A stretch of DNA of 20,245 nucleotides from a virus. The notes beneath the pieces were generated by a model. The model was given only the letters and a program-made list of their open reading frames with translations. It had not been told where the DNA came from and searched no databases. The stretch lies in the IMG/VR virus record IMGVR_UViG_3300049734_000429, positions 1 through 20,245 of that record; one strand, 5' to 3'. The position numbers and the translations under genes were made by a program. Of the stretch, positions 1,908 through 19,150 are shown in pieces; the first letter of the stretch is position 1; each line of letters opens with the position of its first letter.

Positions 1908-2795
1908 TTGCTCGAGCAATGCGACGCGTCGCCCGACGTCCTCACCGACGCGTCGAAGCTTGACGCGGGCGACGGCTCGCGGTACCCTCTCGACGTGAAG
2001 AAGTCGCTCACAGCTGCCGGCGACGCGTCGTGTCGATCGACCGGCGACGCGTCGCCAGGATCCCGATTCGACTCGCCCCCGGCCGAAGACGACGCGTCGC
2101 GGCAGGTCCTCGCCGACGCGTCGCCGAGCGATCGTTGTTGCGCGTGGTGCCGGGGTTCGATACCTGAGCGTGCCCGGGTCGATTCGATCTTCTGCTCGCG
2201 GCGGTGCCGGCAAGCCGCCTTCCGGATCCGTCGGCGACACCAGGTCGAGGAGCGTGAAGCGAAGCCGCTTCGCATGGCCTACGCCGATCCGCCCTACCCC
2301 GGCCTGGCGTGGATGTACCGCGATCAGCCGAGCTACGCCGGCGAAGTCGATCATGCGGCTCTGATCGCGTCGCTGGAGGCCTCCTACGACGGCTTCGCAC
2401 TGAGCACGTCTTCGAGGGCCCTGGCGACGCTTCTGCCGCTCTTAACCCAGCCCTACCACTTGTGCCCGTGGGTGAAGCCGATCGGGGCCGCGGGCACGAC
2501 GTTTGGCGTGCACAACACTTGGGAACCCTTGATCGTGGTGCCGGGCCGCGAGCTTCAACCGGGTAAGCGCGACTGGCTCCTGGCCCAGCCGGCGAGAGGG
2601 GGCGGAAGCGACTTGATCGGCCGCAAGCCCGAGGCGTTCGCGGTGTGGCTCTTCGAGCTGCTCGGCCTTCTTCCCGGTGACCAATTCGACGATCTCTATC
2701 CCGGCTCGGGGATCATCGGCCGGGCGTGGGCCGAGGTCTGCCGTCAGCGGAGCCGCTCGGCCAGGTCGTCAATCGCGGCCTCGGGCGTGGCGTGA
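1908..2795 (+). CDS. DPPY-type DNA methyltransferase with N-terminal repeat and Cys cluster
   Basis: 295 residues from TTG 1908, just after an in-frame TAG; GTG 1995 is an alternative start. Residues about 6-76 are an octapeptide repeat starting mostly with DAS. Residues 77-112 form a likely zinc-binding knuckle (C78-x2-C81, C96-x3-C100) ending in a basic helix, CRQAAFRIRRRH. The catalytic domain follows: DPPY at 127-130 (motif IV), then KPEAF, WLFELLG and DLYPGSG at 262-268 (motif I, SAM binding). Motif IV before motif I is the order of beta-class N6-adenine/N4-cytosine methyltransferases; similar enzymes occur in actinobacteria and phages. The gene opposes the structural operon, and its 3' end overlaps the 64-residue minus-strand gene antisense by 52 nt. 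It likely protects phage DNA from restriction or marks it. The target is unknown, and no cognate endonuclease is seen. Confidence 0.8.
   Translation: MLEQCDASPDVLTDASKLDAGDGSRYPLDVKKSLTAAGDASCRSTGDASPGSRFDSPPAEDDASRQVLADASPSDRCCAWCRGSIPERARVDSIFCSRRCRQAAFRIRRRHQVEEREAKPLRMAYADPPYPGLAWMYRDQPSYAGEVDHAALIASLEASYDGFALSTSSRALATLLPLLTQPYHLCPWVKPIGAAGTTFGVHNTWEPLIVVPGRELQPGKRDWLLAQPARGGGSDLIGRKPEAFAVWLFELLGLLPGDQFDDLYPGSGIIGRAWAEVCRQRSRSARSSIAASGVA
1923..2138 (+). repeat. 24-bp-period GACGCGTCG array inside methyltransferase gene
   Basis: GACGCGTCG occurs at 1923, 1947, 2022, 2046, 2091 and 2115: three pairs, each exactly 24 bp apart. A degenerate unit (GACGGCTCG) lies at 1971. The whole stretch reads as nine octapeptide units, with one unit a codon longer (1995) and one a codon shorter (2070). 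The core uses the same codons (gac gcg tcg) every time, while the 15 bp between cores varies. GACGCGTC is an 8-bp palindrome. The same core with 24-bp period recurs at 19151-19207. Confidence 0.85.
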
Positions 2796-2938
2796 GTGTG
2801 GGCGCTCCGCGGATCGCGTACGCGGCCGTCGGAGCCCATGCAAATGGCGACGAAGTTGCCACCGCCCTGGTCGATGACGCACACGCCCATGCATCCCTTG
2901 GAGCGGGCCGCGGCGATCACGTCTTTCAGGTCGTTCAT
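2744..2938 (-). CDS. Small hypothetical phage protein
   Basis: 64 residues from ATG 2938, 10 nt after the upstream tail gene ends. The sequence looks like a compact alpha/beta protein: an N-terminal helix (MNDLKDVIAAARSKG), hydrophobic strands (GVCVIDQGGGNFVAICMG), then a C-terminal helix (TPEAAIDDLAERLR). Three Cys lie in the central part. Its end overlaps the 3' end of the plus-strand methyltransferase by 52 nt. I do not recognise a family. The close spacing puts it in the tail operon. Confidence 0.55.
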   Translation of the reverse strand: MNDLKDVIAAARSKGCMGVCVIDQGGGNFVAICMGSDGRVRDPRSAHTHATPEAAIDDLAERLR

Positions 2939-2948
2939 GGGTGCACTC

Positions 2949-3881
2949 TCACGCGAGCAGGGTGGACCAGTTACGGGGCACGTAACCGTTCGGCTCGACG
3001 TAGTGGTAATCGGTGGACAGGTCCGAAAGGCGGTAGCCGTCGGCGTCGAGCGGGACCGGGTCGCTCACCGGCTGGCCGTTGCCGTCGGTGATCGTGACGA
3101 TTCGTTTGGGATTGTCGGGGTCGGCTTCCGAGCCCTCGAAGGCCCGCCGGCCGCGGTTCAAGATCGAGGGCTGCCAGCCCTCGGGGTCGTGTTCGGCCTG
3201 GACCGTGAAGGCGACGTAGAGGGCGAGCCCCGAGCCGGTGGACTCCCACTCGAAGTCATAGCCGTACTCGGTGCAGCGAAGGGTTTCGGCGGCATAGGTC
3301 TTGCCGGCCACGGTGAAGTTGGCGTTGTTGAGCGAGTCCATGAACAGCGACCGCGTCGCCCAGTTGAGCGCCGCCGGCAGCCGCCAGAACTTCCACGTTA
3401 GGACCTCATGCGATCGGAAGACATCAATGGGCGGGTCGAACGCATCGCCCACCGTGTTCACGACCGGGTCACCGGTGACCGCGTCCTTTTCGAGTACCTT
3501 GGTCACTTCCTTTCGGCTCACCGTCAGCTTCGGCGGCCGCGACTGGGCGGCGGTGTTTTGCGAGCCGTCGCCGGGTGATGGCGAGCCCGATCCGTCGCCG
3601 ACGCCGGCGAACGGCGCCGACGAGTACTCGGCGGTCACGATCTTCTGGAACTGCGAAGCGCCGGGCTGAACCGGGATTTTGCGGCACAGTGCCGGCGGCC
3701 AGTCGGGGTGCGGCTGAAAGAGTGCGGCGGTCGCGTCGAAGGCGACAACGGCATCGACCGCGGCGGGGACGCTGAGCCGCTCATCCGACTCGACGAGCCA
3801 CTCGCGTTTGAGGGTGCGGACACCCTTCTCGTCGGTGTCGCCGCTCTCGCCCTGCCAGCGGGGAATGACTCGTGTCGCCAT
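2949..3881 (-). CDS. Phage tail-associated protein of unknown family
   Basis: 310 residues. The start is ATG 3881, 5 nt after a TANATA box whose TAA is the stop codon of the tape measure gene. The protein has an N-terminal basic/acidic region (WQGESGDTDEKGVRTLKREW), a Gly/Ser/Pro-rich linker around residues 95-115 and a beta-rich remainder with many aromatic residues (RSHEVLTWKFWRLP). It follows the tape measure directly, where siphoviruses encode distal tail or baseplate hub proteins, so a role in the tail tip is the best guess. I see no motif that identifies it as a Dit or Tal homologue. Confidence 0.7.
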   Translation of the reverse strand: MATRVIPRWQGESGDTDEKGVRTLKREWLVESDERLSVPAAVDAVVAFDATAALFQPHPDWPPALCRKIPVQPGASQFQKIVTAEYSSAPFAGVGDGSGSPSPGDGSQNTAAQSRPPKLTVSRKEVTKVLEKDAVTGDPVVNTVGDAFDPPIDVFRSHEVLTWKFWRLPAALNWATRSLFMDSLNNANFTVAGKTYAAETLRCTEYGYDFEWESTGSGLALYVAFTVQAEHDPEGWQPSILNRGRRAFEGSEADPDNPKRIVTITDGNGQPVSDPVPLDADGYRLSDLSTDYHYVEPNGYVPRNWSTLLA

Positions 3882-3892: not shown

Positions 3893-5392
3893 GAGCGGCA
3901 GGAGTTGCTCGACCTTCTTCTCGATGAGCCGCTCGACGTTGCGGTTGAGCTTGCCGAGTTCGGCGTTGCCCTTCTTCTGCTCGTTGAGCATCTGATCCTG
4001 GACCTTGCCGCCGAACTCGTGACGGAGCCGGGCGCTGACTTCGGCCGAGGAGCCCCTCAGGAGCGCGGCGTTGTCACTCTTGAGTTCGGCCGTTGCCCGC
4101 TCCTGCTGTTCAGCCACGTCACGAGCGGCCTTGACCGCGTTCTCGCGCTGCTTGTTCTGGAGCCGGTCGAGCCAGTCGTTGAACTGGCGGGCCGAGTTGC
4201 CCCAGCCGGCGATCGCGTCGCGGCCCCACTCCTGAGCCCGAGCCCCCCAGCCCTTGACCTGGTCGTCAGCCGCGGCGACCGCCGAGGCGAAGGCGTCGAA
4301 GCCCTCGGGCCGGAACTTCTCGGGCAGGGACTTAGCAAGGTCGGTGACCTGGCGGAAGAGCGAGAGCATCGTCCCGCCCTGCTCGATCACGAAGCCGAAC
4401 GCCACGGCGACGGCCCCGGCCCCGGCCTTTAGCGTGTCCCACATGAAAGCCCCGGCGGTGCCGATGCCGCGGAAGACGGCGAAGAACACGTCGCGGATCG
4501 ACGGTAGCTCGGCAGTGAGGCCGAAGGTCGCCTCAATCCAGTTGCCGACCTCGTCGACGATCGCCAGGACCAGGTCGCGGACCTCGGTGAAGACAGCCGA
4601 GCCGATCTCCCAGAAGGCTTCGATCGCCCGGCCGAGCCAGGAGACGAGCGGTTGAACCCCGGTGAAGAGTGACGCCAGGCGATCGGCCCAGAACTGCAGC
4701 GCCGGGGCGTAGGCGATCAGCAGCCGCTGGGCGATGCCCTGAACGGCGAGCTTGGCCCGGGTGATCGCGTCGTTCGCGGCCTCGATCTTCGTCGCGTCGG
4801 CGTCCTGCAGTGCTGCCCCGTACTTGGTCATCTCGCCGACCATGCCGCGGAGCGATTCGCCGCCCCCCTCGAACATGGCGGAAAGTTCGACGCCCGAGCG
4901 GCCGAAATTCTCGGCAAGTAGTTGCGCCCGCTCCATCGGCGAATCGAGCGACGCGTAACGGTCGGCCAAGTTGAAGAGCGCTTCGTCGAGTGGCCCCTCG
5001 ACGTTCTGGCGGAAGCGGATCATCCCGGCCCGGAGCTTCTCGGTCGAAACGCCCGACAGGTCGGCGGCGTGGGCGATCCCCTGCCAGGTTTCGGTCGAGG
5101 TGCCGAACCGGCGGGCGGCTTTGGCGGCGTCGTCGAGCTTGGTCCGGAGGTCGCCGAAGACGGAGAGCGCCCGCTGCACGCCGCGGACGATCGTCGAGCC
5201 GATCACGGCACCGGCCCCGAACGCTCCGCCAAGGAGTCCGGCCCGGCCGAACGAGAATCGGCTCTGCACTTGCTTGGCGGTGTCGCCGGCCCAGCGGGTG
5301 AGGTCGCCGCGGAGTTGGCCGAGCCCGGCCTTCGCCTTGGTGGAGTCGGTGGAAAGCACCAGGGCCGCGCGGCCGATCGCTGTCTGAGCCAT
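3890..5392 (-). CDS. Tape measure protein
   Basis: 500 residues. Tape measure proteins set tail length and are ejected with the DNA. Evidence: a long helical sequence downstream of a frameshifting chaperone; Gly/Ala-rich hydrophobic segments (LLGGAFGAGAVIGSTIV near residue 53, GTAGAFMWDTLKAGAGAVAVAFGF near 330); and a C-terminal region of charged helices predicted to coil (NKQRENAVKAARDVAEQQER, ELGKLNRNVERLIEKKVEQL). The start is ATG 5392, 5 nt after a TANATA box. At 500 residues it is short for the family. The known rule of roughly 1.5 angstrom of tail per residue would give a tail near 75 nm (my inference). No peptidase or muralytic domain is recognised. Confidence 0.85.
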   Translation of the reverse strand: MAQTAIGRAALVLSTDSTKAKAGLGQLRGDLTRWAGDTAKQVQSRFSFGRAGLLGGAFGAGAVIGSTIVRGVQRALSVFGDLRTKLDDAAKAARRFGTSTETWQGIAHAADLSGVSTEKLRAGMIRFRQNVEGPLDEALFNLADRYASLDSPMERAQLLAENFGRSGVELSAMFEGGGESLRGMVGEMTKYGAALQDADATKIEAANDAITRAKLAVQGIAQRLLIAYAPALQFWADRLASLFTGVQPLVSWLGRAIEAFWEIGSAVFTEVRDLVLAIVDEVGNWIEATFGLTAELPSIRDVFFAVFRGIGTAGAFMWDTLKAGAGAVAVAFGFVIEQGGTMLSLFRQVTDLAKSLPEKFRPEGFDAFASAVAAADDQVKGWGARAQEWGRDAIAGWGNSARQFNDWLDRLQNKQRENAVKAARDVAEQQERATAELKSDNAALLRGSSAEVSARLRHEFGGKVQDQMLNEQKKGNAELGKLNRNVERLIEKKVEQLLPL

Positions 5393-9850: not shown

Positions 9851-10441
9851 TCAGCGGAGCTTTTCGAGGCGGAGCCGTCGCTCGCGGATCCGTGCGGCCT
9901 CGGCCCGCAAGCTGAGCACAGTGTCGGGGTAGGCCGGCGTCCCGGTAATAGTCACTTCGACCAGGTCCACCTCGAGCTGCTCGACCAGCGGGAACTTGTC
10001 GCCCGCGGCCGGTGAGTTCCAGCGATCGCGGCGGGTGCGGAAGCCGAACGAGCCGCCGCGAAACTTGCCGGCCCGCACGTCGGCCAGGAGCGCGTCGGCC
10101 TCGGGGGTCTGGGGCAGGTAGACCGAGGCGAAGAGGCCGCGGGCGTCTTCCTGCAAGAGCAGCCCGTTCGACCGCGTCGCGATCGTCCGGCCGGCGTCGT
10201 GTTCGACCCGGGCGTGTACGTCGAGGCCCTCGGCCAGCGTCCGCGTGAAGGCGCCCGGCCGGATGACTTCGACGAAGGTCTTCCCGTCTTCGTTGATCGG
10301 CAAACTCGGTCGATCGAAGACGGCCGGGTACCAGACGAGCCGGCGATCGCCGCGGACGCTCGGCGGGTCGCCCATGGCCCGGCAGACGATCGGCGGCTCA
10401 CTCGGCGGCGGCGTCGCCGTCCTCTTCCTCAGCGTCGTCAT
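9851..10441 (-). CDS. HK97-type prohead protease
   Basis: 196 residues from ATG 10441, overlapping the portal gene by 44 nt; ATG 10374, just after the portal stop, is an alternative. Family signatures: DRRLVWYPAVFD, KTFVEVIRPGAF, the catalytic His in ARVEHDAGRT, the catalytic Ser in RGGSFGFRT, and VEVTITGTPAYPDT at the end of the core. This serine protease (assemblin-like fold) assembles inside the prohead and removes the capsid delta domain before DNA packaging. It lies between portal and capsid, as in HK97. Confidence 0.9.
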   Translation of the reverse strand: MTTLRKRTATPPPSEPPIVCRAMGDPPSVRGDRRLVWYPAVFDRPSLPINEDGKTFVEVIRPGAFTRTLAEGLDVHARVEHDAGRTIATRSNGLLLQEDARGLFASVYLPQTPEADALLADVRAGKFRGGSFGFRTRRDRWNSPAAGDKFPLVEQLEVDLVEVTITGTPAYPDTVLSLRAEAARIRERRLRLEKLR

Positions 10442-11642
10442 CGGGCGGTTCCTTCGGTGGCGTTGCGGGGGCGGTGTTGAGTTGCACTCGCGGCTGGTCG
10501 AGGCCCGGCAGCTTCGGCAGGTTAAGCCAGCCGCGTTGCTCGTTCGGCGTAATGCTGCCGTTCTGAATGCCGATGTTCGCGACCGTGGCTTGTTGCATCG
10601 GGTCGCCGCGGAGCATAGCCTCGACTTCGAACTCGGCGTACTCGGCCGCGTCGACGCCGAAGACCTTGTGATTGATCTCCAGCTCGATCTTTTCCAGGAT
10701 CGGCCGCATCGATCGCGTATAGAGGGCCTGGTTGTCGGCGCCGAGGTTGCTGTAAGTGCCGCGCTGCAGATTGAAGAGTTGCAACGGCGAGAGGTTGAGC
10801 CAGCGCCCGCAATCGTCCACGCTCGCGGATAGCGCTTCGATGATCGCGGCATCCTCGGCGGTGATCTCGTTGAAGCGGACAAAGTCGCCGCCGTTGGACA
10901 GGATCGGCAGCCGGGCGGTGTTGTCGGCCCCGGCATACTCCTCCTTCCACCACTTCTTGATCACCTCGGCCCCGTCCTTTTCGAGAGCGCCCGGGTACTT
11001 GAGGTAGCCGCTCGGCCGCACGACGTTCTCGTAATAGGCCGTGCCCGATTCGAGCACGCGGCGGTGCAGGCCGAGCGACTCGCCGGCCAGGTCGAGCAGA
11101 CGCGTTCCGCGGATGCCGTCCCGCGAGTACAGGAAGAGGTGAACGACCTCGTTGTCGGGGTAGAACTGGACCGAGTTGTCGGCCTCGCGAATGAGGAAGC
11201 CCTTGTTCCACTCCTCGTCGATCACGACGTCCACCAGGGCCGCACACGGCACCGGGTAGAGGCCGAGCAGCCGCCCGCCCATCGACCAGCGAAGGACGGC
11301 TACGAAGTCCGATTCGAGGAAGAGCGCCCGGGCGAGCAGCTCGAAGAACACCGCCCGCGTCATCGCCGGGTTGGGCCGCTCGTGGAGCAGCGAGTAGGCC
11401 GGGTGCCGGCGGGCCCGTTCGCGGGAGTCGTTGTCGAGCCGCCGGTAGGTGACCAGCGGCAACGAGCCGATTACGGTCTGGTACAGCCGCACGCCGCACC
11501 AGAACGGCGAGAGCGAGAGCGCTTCCTCCTCGGTGTGCACGGCACCCGGCCGCGACGGGCCGAAGAAGCCCTCGGGCACACGGCTGAGCGGGAACCAGCG
11601 GATGAAGCGGCGGCGGAGCCAGCGGCGAAGACGGCCGAACAT
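10398..11642 (-). CDS. Portal protein, HK97 family
   Basis: 414 residues from ATG 11642. The portal forms the dodecameric ring at one capsid vertex through which DNA is packaged and ejected. Family features: a basic N-terminus (MFGRLRRWLRRRF), LSPFWCGVRLYQTVIGSLPL, HPAYSLLHERPNPAMTRAVF, a wing domain, a stem-like stretch with VDDCGRWLNLSPLQLFNLQ, and a tail beginning around LNTAPATPP followed by an acidic end (DDDAEEEDGD). The start is set by a TANATA box 5 nt upstream. The large terminase and portal genes are normally adjacent, but here a plus-strand methyltransferase cassette of about 0.9 kb separates them. Confidence 0.9.
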   Translation of the reverse strand: MFGRLRRWLRRRFIRWFPLSRVPEGFFGPSRPGAVHTEEEALSLSPFWCGVRLYQTVIGSLPLVTYRRLDNDSRERARRHPAYSLLHERPNPAMTRAVFFELLARALFLESDFVAVLRWSMGGRLLGLYPVPCAALVDVVIDEEWNKGFLIREADNSVQFYPDNEVVHLFLYSRDGIRGTRLLDLAGESLGLHRRVLESGTAYYENVVRPSGYLKYPGALEKDGAEVIKKWWKEEYAGADNTARLPILSNGGDFVRFNEITAEDAAIIEALSASVDDCGRWLNLSPLQLFNLQRGTYSNLGADNQALYTRSMRPILEKIELEINHKVFGVDAAEYAEFEVEAMLRGDPMQQATVANIGIQNGSITPNEQRGWLNLPKLPGLDQPRVQLNTAPATPPKEPPDDDAEEEDGDAAAE

Positions 11643-11667: not shown

Positions 11668-11696
11668 TTGACGAGTCACCGCAGCGGTGTCACAAC
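11668..11696 (+). promoter_or_regulatory. Possible C5 methyltransferase promoter with palindrome in spacer
   Basis: TTGACG (11668-11673) resembles a -35 box; 17 nt later is CACAAC, a poor -10. The spacer holds the perfect odd palindrome CACCGCAGCGGTG (11677-11689), the same type as the units of the array at 19622-19816. C5 methyltransferase genes are often autoregulated, so this could be an operator. The promoter itself is weakly supported. Confidence 0.35.
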
Positions 11697-11816
11697 AGGA
11701 AGACGAAGGCCAGCGGCGATCGAGCAGTCACGGTTGCCGCTGCGGGGTCACGGCCTGGCCGAGTCACACATCGATGAGTCACACTCTCCAGGACCTGTCA
11801 CAGTGCGGTCAGTCAC
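11675..11816 (+). repeat. 5' cluster of eight GTCAC motifs
   Basis: GTCAC starts at 11675, 11689, 11727, 11747, 11763, 11778, 11797 and 11812, all on the plus strand; the reverse orientation GTGAC is absent. Spacing is irregular (14-38 bp). The copies fall in all three codon phases, so the repetition is at the DNA level. Confidence 0.8.
11767..11784 (+). repeat. 18-bp direct repeat, left copy
   Basis: CACATCGATGAGTCACAC, identical to 12592-12609. The ATG inside this copy is the proposed start of the C5 methyltransferase. Confidence 0.85.
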
Positions 11817-12700
11817 CCGAGCTAGTTCTGTCCCTTTTCCCGGGTGTTGACCTCCTTGGCCGAGCCTTTTCTGCCGTCGGGTATTCTGTTGTCGCCGGCC
11901 CCGACCTCCTCCTCGATCAGCTAATCGAGGAGTTCCACACTCCTGCGGGTAGGTTCGACGGGATAATCGGCGGACCGCCTTGCCAGCACTACTCCGACGC
12001 GAACCGCCAGCGGGTCACTGCTGAAGGAGATCGGCTGGTGTGCGAGTTTCTCCGCGTGGTTGATGAGGCCCGTCCGGTGTGGTGGCTGATGGAGAACGTC
12101 CGCAACGTGCCGCACGTGCGGTTACAGGGCTATAGCGTCCAGCGCCTCGACTGCACAGACTGGGAATTCGGTGGGCCTTCCGGGCGGCTCCGACATATCC
12201 AGTTCGGACACCGCGACGGCTGGATTATTCGCCCCCTGCGCACGAGAACCGAGCGGCCAGTCACACCGGTTCCGACCCTCACAACCGTCCCGGCCGGGGC
12301 CGATCGTTACAGTCGGCGATGTTCCAGGATGGGCCTTGCGCTGCCCCTGGTTCTAAGCTCGTTCACGACCGCGGCACGACGTCGGGTCATTGCAAACGGA
12401 GTCCCGTGGGGGATGGGCTTAGCGCTAGCCAGGTCGGTCACCAGCGCAGGACCTGTCACACCAAACGACTGCGTTTGCGGGTGCGGCCGTCGAGTCACAC
12501 CCCCGAGGTCGCACGCCAGCGACGCTTGCCGGCAACGAGCCTCGCGCTGCCGGCGGGGTCACAATCGAGTGTTGGAGTTCCCCCAGGGGGTCACATCGAT
12601 GAGTCACACCAGGAAGATCGCCGGCGTTGCCGGCGGGGCGGACGCGGCCGCGTCGGCCAGGGCGAAGGGCATGAGCAGCGCGATCGCGCCGTCGATGTGA
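11774..12700 (+). CDS. C5-cytosine DNA methyltransferase with C-terminal Cys cluster
   Basis: 308 residues from ATG 11774; the frame is open from GTG 11687, but the catalytic domain starts soon after the ATG. Motifs (numbered from the ATG): LSLFPGVDLLGRAF (motif I, about 19-32), IIGGPPCQ with catalytic Cys70 (IV), MENVRN 106-111 (VI), GRLRHIQFG (VIII) and RRVIANGVPWGMGLALARSV (X). The gap between VIII and X is about 60 residues, so the target recognition domain is very small. A Cys-rich module follows (CVCGCGRR, ASDACRQRASRCRR; about 233-261), a likely zinc knuckle. The last 33 residues are antisense to the 3' end of the large terminase gene, suggesting that insertion added a foreign tail. 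It probably modifies phage DNA against restriction. No partner nuclease is seen. Confidence 0.82.
   Translation: MSHTLQDLSQCGQSPELVLSLFPGVDLLGRAFSAVGYSVVAGPDLLLDQLIEEFHTPAGRFDGIIGGPPCQHYSDANRQRVTAEGDRLVCEFLRVVDEARPVWWLMENVRNVPHVRLQGYSVQRLDCTDWEFGGPSGRLRHIQFGHRDGWIIRPLRTRTERPVTPVPTLTTVPAGADRYSRRCSRMGLALPLVLSSFTTAARRRVIANGVPWGMGLALARSVTSAGPVTPNDCVCGCGRRVTPPRSHASDACRQRASRCRRGHNRVLEFPQGVTSMSHTRKIAGVAGGADAAASARAKGMSSAIAPSM
12437..12607 (+). repeat. 3' cluster of six GTCAC motifs
   Basis: GTCAC starts at 12437, 12455, 12494, 12558, 12590 and 12603; two isolated copies lie in the gene body (12014, 12260). Together with the 5' cluster this makes 16 same-strand copies in 933 bp, where chance would give about one. 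The cluster stops abruptly at the terminase stop codon. Confidence 0.8.
12592..12609 (+). repeat. 18-bp direct repeat, right copy
   Basis: CACATCGATGAGTCACAC, identical to 11767-11784. On the minus strand this copy contains the TGA stop of the large terminase. The two copies bracket the methyltransferase cassette. Confidence 0.85.
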
Positions 12701-14229
12701 TCGACGCTCTTCGCCTTCACCAGCCGCACGTTCTTGTGCGGGTCGGTGTCGAGCCGGGCCGAGTGGATGCACCAGCGCGCCCACGCCGAGCCGTCGTGAG
12801 TCACCCGCCGCTCGATCACGGCCGTTTCCAGTTCCCGGACCGGCCCGTTGAACCATCGGTGAGTCTGGGGCTGACGGAAGATTCGCTCGCCGCCCAGGTC
12901 GCCGTCGAGGTCCTGGCCGACAACCCATGCACCGTTGGGGTCCATCACGAGCGCCTTGACGTTGCCGAGGCCGACCATGTAGCGGAGCTGGCCGAGCACG
13001 GCCGATTTGTCGATCACGTCGCCGGCGGTGACGATCATCGAGCCCTCGGCGACGAACTGCTGATAGCGCGGCAGGTTGGTCTTCTCCCGCTCCCGCACGC
13101 CCGCCTCGGCAACCCAGGCCCACGATCGCACGAAGAACCGCCGCCCCGGCCGCGGCCACACCGCCGAGATCGACGTCGGGTCGATCCGCTGCGATGCGTC
13201 GAGGCCGAGGAAGCAATCGAGCGAGCGCAGCTCCTCGGGCGACGGCACCTCACCGCGGCAGGCATCCCACCGAACGAGATCAATCCAGGTCGTCTCTTCC
13301 GGCCGGCGGAAGATGTTGAAGCGGTACCGCTCGAAGCTGAGCCGGTCGCCGGTCCGTTGCTTCTTCGCTTCCCAGAGCAGCCCGAAGCTCTCGGCGGTGA
13401 AGCCCTCGTACTGGTCCATCGACGGGTTGACCCGCCGCCAGACTTCCGGGTCGTCGAGGTCGTCTTTATCGGGGTCGGCTTCGTAGACCTCGGCGTAAAA
13501 GGTGGGGTCGAGGTCGTCGCCGGCGACGTGCCTCCGGCCGCGTTCGACCAGGCCGTAATACCAGTGGGTGAGGTCGTCGCCGGCCGTCGAGATCACGACC
13601 ATGAAGCCGTCGGGCCGGCCGATCATGGCGTATTCGAGCGTGCGGTAGAGCCGCGGCGATCGGTGGGCGTGGGCCTCATCCACAATCACAGCGCTGCAGT
13701 TGAGCCCCTCGGCGTTCGAAGCATCGGCCGAGAGCGCCCGGTACTCGCCGTCCCGATCGGGAACGCGAATGAGCTTGCGGAACTCGGTCGGCCTGCACAC
13801 CGCCGCAAGCTTGGGGCTCCGCCGGATGCAGGCGAGAAGCTGCTCGTAAACCTGTTTCGCGTTCTCCTTCGTAGTCGAGGCCGAGACGACGAGCGGCGCC
13901 ACGACGCCCGCCCCGAGCAGCTCGAACAGGGCGATGATGCTCACCAGGAGCGTCTTGCCGTTCTTTTTCGGGACGTGAAGCAACACCAGCTTGAACCGCC
14001 GGCTGCCGTCGGCACGGCGCCAGCCGTAGAGCGACATGAGAAAGCGCCGCTGCCACTGGAAGAGCTTGAACTGCCCCGCTTCCTCGGCCGAGTACTTCAC
14101 CGCGACGTACGCTTCCGCGAAGCGGACGATCTTCTCGGCCGCGGCCTGGTCCCAGTAGTAGCCGTCGTCGAGGGCCCTCCGGTCTGCCTTCGTCCGGATC
14201 GCCCAGGCGGGAGGTGTCGAGCGTGCCAT
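12604..14229 (-). CDS. terL: Terminase large subunit
   Basis: 541 residues from ATG 14229. The DNA-packaging motor has an N-terminal ATPase and a C-terminal nuclease. Visible motifs: a Walker A variant HVPKKNGKT (about 85-93), Walker B AVIVDEAH (about 180-187), a coupling-type STAGDD (about 214-219), and nuclease-domain acidic motifs FLGLDAS and SVDHIDGAIAL. This is the HK97/phage terminase_1-like type that works with P27-type small subunits. The start lies 6 nt after a TANATA box. Its 3' end carries the right copy of the 18-bp direct repeat and is overlapped antisense by the methyltransferase frame for 97 nt. Confidence 0.92.
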   Translation of the reverse strand: MARSTPPAWAIRTKADRRALDDGYYWDQAAAEKIVRFAEAYVAVKYSAEEAGQFKLFQWQRRFLMSLYGWRRADGSRRFKLVLLHVPKKNGKTLLVSIIALFELLGAGVVAPLVVSASTTKENAKQVYEQLLACIRRSPKLAAVCRPTEFRKLIRVPDRDGEYRALSADASNAEGLNCSAVIVDEAHAHRSPRLYRTLEYAMIGRPDGFMVVISTAGDDLTHWYYGLVERGRRHVAGDDLDPTFYAEVYEADPDKDDLDDPEVWRRVNPSMDQYEGFTAESFGLLWEAKKQRTGDRLSFERYRFNIFRRPEETTWIDLVRWDACRGEVPSPEELRSLDCFLGLDASQRIDPTSISAVWPRPGRRFFVRSWAWVAEAGVREREKTNLPRYQQFVAEGSMIVTAGDVIDKSAVLGQLRYMVGLGNVKALVMDPNGAWVVGQDLDGDLGGERIFRQPQTHRWFNGPVRELETAVIERRVTHDGSAWARWCIHSARLDTDPHKNVRLVKAKSVDHIDGAIALLMPFALADAAASAPPATPAIFLV

Positions 14230-19110: not shown

Positions 19111-19150
19111 CCCCCCTGCCCTTCCCCGACCGGCACGCGGATCCGCGGCC

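Follow-up and report, generated by a model that had tools for sequence, protein, structure and literature searches.

The stretch of DNA analysed here, referred to as the window, is the 20,245-nt virus record IMGVR_UViG_3300049734_000429, and all coordinates are 1-based on the given strand. An open reading frame for a predicted C5-cytosine DNA methyltransferase is located on the plus strand at 11774-12700 (PF00145, 4.5e-12), between a phage portal gene on its left (10398-11642, minus strand, PF04860, 1.5e-70) and the gene of the terminase large subunit on its right (12604-14229, minus strand, PF03354/PF20441). The ATG sits within ATCGATGAGTCACAC and the frame is free of stop codons up to 12700, overlapping the 3' end of the terminase gene in antisense; homologues terminate about 10-30 residues past the Cys module described below. 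The catalytic motifs PCQ, ENV, RxR and NGVP were found to be invariant or almost so in 42-44 homologues. The product is assigned to the C5-cytosine DNA methyltransferases by its motifs IV (PC), VI (ENV), VIII (RxR) and X (N-x-V-P) and its class I fold, and it is predicted to methylate DNA at a defined site. An AlphaFold model (pLDDT 89) has the C5-methyltransferase fold with M.HaeIII (3ubt) as the top PDB match. No cognate restriction nuclease lies beside the gene, its neighbours in the window being portal and terminase, and no common partner was observed among the homologous loci; the locus thus lacks the adjoining nuclease of a restriction-modification system.

Towards its C-terminus the enzyme carries a module of the zinc-binding type, CVCGCG-x14-CRQRASR, encoded at 12470-12547 on the plus strand and containing four invariant cysteines. 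C233, C235, C237 and C252, together with R253, are invariant in the 44 homologues. The segment between motifs VIII and IX is short and of low confidence in the window enzyme, so the Zn module may be what determines specificity.

The GTCAC cluster

The first-pass annotation described sixteen copies of GTCAC and none of GTGAC on one strand within 933 bp around this gene, and our recount agrees (11675-12607, plus strand). When the window was simulated 300 times with a first-order Markov model, no more than 7 copies fell on one strand within any 933 bp (mean 4.5), whereas the 49 copies in the remaining 19.3 kb are found on both strands and are near chance. The division into clusters of eight before and six after the catalytic core was also recovered. 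The 5' array consists of eight GTCAC half-sites on the plus strand (11675, 11689, 11727, 11747, 11763, 11778, 11797 and 11812; 11675-11816), all with G at position -5, and the 3' array of six on the same strand (12437, 12455, 12494, 12558, 12590 and 12603; 12437-12607), where G is present at -5 in five of the six and missing at 12590. Two further copies are located in the core: the one at 12260-12264 (plus strand) matches the extended consensus given below, while the one at 12014 is off consensus and may be due to chance. The cluster occupies the gap between the two late genes, both of which are read from the opposite strand, and it stops at their boundaries as had been claimed: the portal start codon is at 11640-11642 and the last GTCAC (12603-12607) includes the terminase stop codon (12604-12606).

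The repetition was said not to be a protein repeat because all three codon phases are used, and we arrive at the same conclusion, since with the ATG at 11774 as reference the in-frame copies fall into phases 0, 1 and 2 as 6, 3 and 2. Sites are also present in the non-coding flanks, and in the phage Elener (see below) the array is an extra insert within the protein. An accident of composition is rejected by the simulations and by the conservation of the motif in distant homologues and in the non-coding flanks. The chance that either of these trivial explanations holds is considered negligible. In many homologues, the array itself codes for the C-terminal tail of the protein (SVTDLV, GVTQLV and similar).

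Half-site consensus and geometry

The conserved element is longer than GTCAC. We observed an extended motif, G-NNNN-GTCAC (GTGAC-NNNN-C on the other strand), which fits 14 of the 16 cluster copies, all except 12014 and 12590, compared with 5 of the 24 plus-strand copies elsewhere in the window. Among the homologues, G at position -5 of GTCAC occurs in 326 of 404 copies near the gene (81%) but in only 68 of 301 far from it (23%). The spacing of the sites is also constrained: a distance of 32 bp between the starts of GTGAC and GTCAC was found in 122 cases against 3 in the background, and the preferred same-strand steps are 14, 23, 17 and 38 bp. Alignment of the 122 pairs gave the half-site (Y)GTGAC-NNNN-C, with the final C present at 89%, and the family consensus derived from the homologue set is GNNNNGTCAC. 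The window has no 32-bp pair and therefore gave nothing to this consensus, so that its fit is independent. Its one-strand layout is one among several layouts in the family. The closest relative (L071, protein 64% identical) has arrays that are nearly one-strand, with one GTGAC among the sites, and several of its sites are shared with the window though the surrounding DNA has diverged.

Association of the array with the Cys module

With the window protein alone as query, no close relative was found among viral contigs; direct search gave remote relatives only, at 45% a gene on a Methylomonas plasmid and at 37% one of the corticovirus GXT1010. In GXT1010, five GTCAC copies in steps of exactly 23 bp are located immediately before the methyltransferase gene. 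An alignment-based query yielded 80 viral and 30 genomic homologous loci, with hosts in Proteobacteria, Chloroflexi and Planctomycetes. Proteins with CxCxC...CR[KQM][RK] were taken as module-bearing, and at least three GTGAC-N4-C near the gene as an array. Arrays were observed at 35 of the 44 module-bearing C5 loci and at none of the 46 homologues without the module; this contrast may go back to the split of one clade and few evolutionary events, so that the counts are not independent cases. The second methyltransferase family and the blind searches described below stand independent of that split. The density of GTGAC-N4-C at module-bearing loci is 8.1 per kb near the gene and 0.39 per kb far from it, and a reversed control motif occurs near the gene at 0.22 per kb.

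Homologues in which the protein is the same and the motif is not enriched, or an equal density throughout the genome, had been named beforehand as evidence against the claim. The numbers above leave the claim unrefuted overall, but the count of sites stays below three at nine of the 44 module-bearing loci, and k-mer enrichment gave no alternative motif in module-bearing loci without arrays. The placement of the array is variable, with sites on both sides of the gene at 21 of the 44 loci, downstream only at 12, upstream only at 4 and on neither side at 7.

Besides the methyltransferase, no gene was found to be common to the neighbourhoods of the homologous loci. The neighbours include Zot, terminase, corticovirus genes, HerA, a D12 methylase and plasmid genes, where names not annotated in the records were assigned by reading the sequences. 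The enzyme itself is therefore the simplest reader of the array. At four loci (L015, L023, L035 and L039) the C5 cassette adjoins an apparent D12-class DNA adenine methylase gene. Many phage C5 methyltransferases (L037-L087, L099 and L007), about 40% identical, form a sister group that has neither module nor array, and in L007 at least the stretch between motifs VIII and IX is longer. This suggests that the Cys module took over target recognition.

Locus specificity and blind searches

Whole array-bearing genomes of 4-9 Mb (relatives of Collimonas, Chromobacterium and Chloroploca) were scanned for a 37-bp pattern, and most or all of the matches were located at the methyltransferase locus. A few stray single matches occur elsewhere in G002, G005, G006 and G009, where that in G002 belongs to another array, which adjoins an inovirus Zot gene at the edge of a contig. 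A 51-bp interleaved unit was also searched blind. Among 399 + 369 genomes it matched three, and in all three the methyltransferase lies between arrays; of 2.9 million viral contigs 14 were matched, nine of which hold the methyltransferase. The other five are three units that lie between phage genes and have no methyltransferase gene (L124, L130 and L137, with that of L130 at a contig end) and two unrelated 7-bp tandems. The latter (L131, 4005-4080, and L132, 6800-6875) were rejected as arrays because their GTCAC repeats match the 51-bp unit only through the 7-bp spacing; these repeats are located just before a phage gene. Reading the 51-bp units as RNA hairpins is disfavoured and DNA sites are preferred because the inner arms are often not complementary while GTGAC/GTCAC is kept.

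Insertion of the cassette and solo arrays

Terminase and portal are 53% identical in the phage L004, which has the two genes without the cassette: its terminase stop codon is at 3651-3653 and the portal alignment begins at 3668, so that the gap is 14 bp compared with 961 bp, array to array, in the window. Similarly, PM2 shows the site of GXT1010 empty; the insertion in GXT1010 is located at a terminator between convergent genes. In inoviruses, including related ones, the cassette is found at differing positions. A Collimonas pair, L088 and G048, was rejected as a further empty site since the missing stretch of about 2.1 kb exceeds the cassette, and therefore the cassette ends are not defined by that pair.

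Arrays were also found where the gene is missing or damaged. L161 has the flanks of the related L009 and an array (about 312-395) but no methyltransferase, at the position where L009 has a full cassette, and it looks like the scar of an L009-type cassette as would be left by recombination between its two arrays. L160 has an array with a truncated methyltransferase gene. Solo arrays between phage genes are located in L120 (1598-1738), L124 (1423-1473), L130 (6983-7033) and L137 (4431-4602), and one of the second motif family in L167 (670-822).

The array GTGAC-NNNN-C and the small C5 methyltransferase thus travel together in a single cassette (about 0.95 kb). In the window this has been inserted, like a moron, exactly at the junction of the terminase and portal genes and on the strand opposite to theirs. 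A moron is expected to separate genes that lie side by side in relatives, and this is seen in the window compared with L004 and in GXT1010 compared with PM2. As to a promoter and terminator of its own, promoter-like sites were seen and GXT1010 has a duplicated terminator; no terminator was identified in the window. The hallmarks of a transposon or insertion sequence were not observed, as the cassette has no second gene, its repeats are internal and variable and no target duplication was found.

A second methyltransferase with its own array

The window encodes another methyltransferase, of the DPPY type, on the plus strand at 1908-2795, which belongs by motif to the adenine/N4-cytosine class and has homologues in L138, L139 and L163-L168; the open reading frame gave no Pfam match at E<0.01. 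Its Cys module, CAWC-x14-FCSRRCRQ, is N-terminal and encoded at about 2139-2234 (plus strand). Six CGACGCGTCG palindromes are located on the plus strand at 1922, 1946, 2021, 2045, 2090 and 2114 (1922-2123), forming three pairs exactly 24 bp apart, and a single further copy was found in the window, at 19150. The gene starts inside its own array. In the homologue L138, CGACGCGTCG occurs before, within and after the gene. In Curtobacterium phage Elener (L139), where the DPPY gene is 45% identical, the array is an extra coding segment (4430-4590), in frame and of about 50 residues, which is absent from homologues; the array of L166 is likewise within coding sequence. DPPY homologues without the module (Xanthomonas PBR31 and L144) or with other modules (L141 and L142) have no CGACGCGTCG array.

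A blind query for palindrome pairs with the 24-bp spacing gave six viral contigs, five of which have the DPPY methyltransferase at the array. The sixth holds an orphan seven-site array with steps of 24-25 bp, and the same phage has a truncated DPPY homologue. In L142, whose DPPY homologue has a different Cys module, ACGCCGGCG occurs eight times near the gene (2500-3850) and once elsewhere in 6.6 kb; this is possibly a third motif, but it is weak and not convincing.

Judging from the sequences, two unrelated methyltransferase families each pair their own Cys module with their own motif. The Cys module had been proposed as the reader of self-recognition sites. What stands firmly of this proposal is the link between module and array, which repeats as a rule in the second, unrelated family; actual reading of the sites by the module is what this link points to.

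Promoter register

A promoter-like element with a 17-bp spacer, TTGACG-aGTCACcgcagcggtgt-CACAAC, is located on the plus strand at 11668-11696, where the first GTCAC begins one base past the -35 and the second lies over the -10. The same register was observed in ten homologous loci. The arrangement T[T/G]GAC-N-R-GTCAC occurs 13 times upstream (11 toward the gene), three times downstream and not at all in the core, and the conserved G at -5 is in this register the G of the -35 element. L016, L017, L022 and L028 have near-consensus sigma70 promoters (TTGACA-aGTCAC, 17-bp spacer) 9-24 bp before the start. When all loci are considered, sites overlap the best-scoring promoter in 22 of 31 against 17.6 expected, which is not much above expectation; what stands out is the fixed register alone.

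Interpretation of the arrays

The explanation we put forward, to which we give about an even chance, is that the GTCAC cluster is a cis-linked array for the enzyme's own Zn module, with autogenous control as its most likely role. The C-terminal Cys4 module would be the reader that binds GTGAC, and the base methylated would most obviously be the near-invariant cytosine 5 bp beyond GTGAC. The many phased sites would allow several enzyme molecules to be bound side by side. Because the putative promoter of the methyltransferase has sites lying over its -35 and -10, bound enzyme would stop its own synthesis, which would be shut off once the array is filled. The fixed promoter register in 11 loci favours this control, and to that extent the early suggestion of autoregulation holds. 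The 12 loci with downstream-only arrays, together with the arrays of Elener and L166 in coding sequence, places where no operator is needed, argue against autogenous control alone.

Such indifference to position is better explained if the array acts as a cis-loading platform or a sponge, which would capture newly made enzyme near its gene. The captured enzyme would then act in cis on the phage's own DNA or, as a sponge, the array would keep free enzyme low and spare the host genome. Linkage to the gene would be required and position relative to the promoter irrelevant, which agrees with arrays that are upstream, downstream or inside the gene but always linked to it, with one array locus per genome, and with a specificity that may lie in the Zn module given the short VIII-IX segment. 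The promoter register is not predicted by a platform or sponge, and we regard this explanation as possible but doubtful. The precise insertion between genes, the solo arrays including that of L161 and the differing insertion places in related inoviruses could alternatively indicate that the arrays are recombination ends for gene transfer and loss, with the methyltransferase as passenger or helper. Recombination marks that mobilise the gene had been suggested at the outset, and it is true that array and gene move as a unit and that arrays can lose the gene. However, no recombinase or transposase is common to the loci, neither target duplication nor a defined terminal sequence was found, the half-site arrangement differs between cassettes and plain homologous recombination between flanking arrays accounts for gene loss, which makes recombination ends unlikely. 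We consider it very unlikely that some other protein, such as a host or phage regulator or a nucleoid protein, reads arrays that the methyltransferase only modifies, since the hosts span three phyla without a shared neighbour gene and the motif tracks the Cys module, a different module going with a different motif.

Returning to arrays read by the enzyme's own module, methyltransferases with small Cys4 modules are probably a general class of mobile genes that address themselves, in which every family has a phased cis array that its own module would read. GTGAC-N4-C in the C5 family and CGACGCGTCG every 24 bp in the DPPY family would be examples. The array would then be a part of the cassette instead of an ordinary promoter operator, and module and array would co-evolve and be mutually predictable.

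Relation to known systems and implications

In the LlaJI restriction-modification system of the Lactococcus plasmid pNP40, the promoter region of the C5 methyltransferases contains two sites that these enzymes themselves recognise, and a transcriptional control has been described (PMC1459862). The window locus may be similar, its C5 methyltransferase gene having sites over a promoter-like element that are predicted to be recognised by the enzyme. LlaJI differs in having two sites instead of a phased array and a four-gene operon with nuclease subunits (PMC1459862). It also has no flanking array and is not a mobile single-gene cassette. Among our loci, 11 have sites in the fixed -35 register and may resemble LlaJI in this; 12 have no upstream array. 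M.SsoII and M.EcoRII are autoregulatory C5 methyltransferases of restriction-modification systems that repress their own gene through an added DNA-binding domain; this is an N-terminal helix-turn-helix acting on a single operator, whereas here the Cys4 module is C-terminal and the half-sites are many. Phage morons are alike in being a single gene between genes adjacent in relatives, on its own strand and possibly with its own promoter, but they are not known to us to be bracketed by arrays of binding sites. REP/RAYT elements and solo-LTR-like scars comprise palindromic intergenic units tied to one gene, with gene-less copies elsewhere, and in this they resemble the cassette. However, the cassette has no HUH transposase and its units are not dispersed through the genome, as the pattern is essentially at the methyltransferase locus. 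Mycobacteriophage stoperators are short asymmetric sites in a preferred orientation that are distributed genome-wide and read by the immunity repressor; the sites described here are likewise short, asymmetric and oriented but confined to one locus.

The literature, which was covered incompletely, gave nothing relevant on GTGAC with a C5 methyltransferase in phage, on an inovirus methyltransferase with palindromic repeats or on a corticovirus methyltransferase. We know of no described family in which a gene lies within a phased array that its Zn module would read, as mobile cassettes and in two unrelated methyltransferase families. The architecture thus appears to be new, and the mechanism could turn out to be autorepression, which is known.

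The search rule that follows from it, a phased motif array beside a Cys4 methyltransferase, worked blind for two families and could serve to find more of them. If the Zn module does read the array, this would be a compact and modular natural way of aiming a DNA methyltransferase, with a module of 30 residues and a motif that is legible from the flanking DNA, and it would raise the question of why a modification enzyme needs sites beside its own gene. For an orphan methyltransferase of a phage, sequence alone would then be enough to predict the target motif, which is normally impossible.
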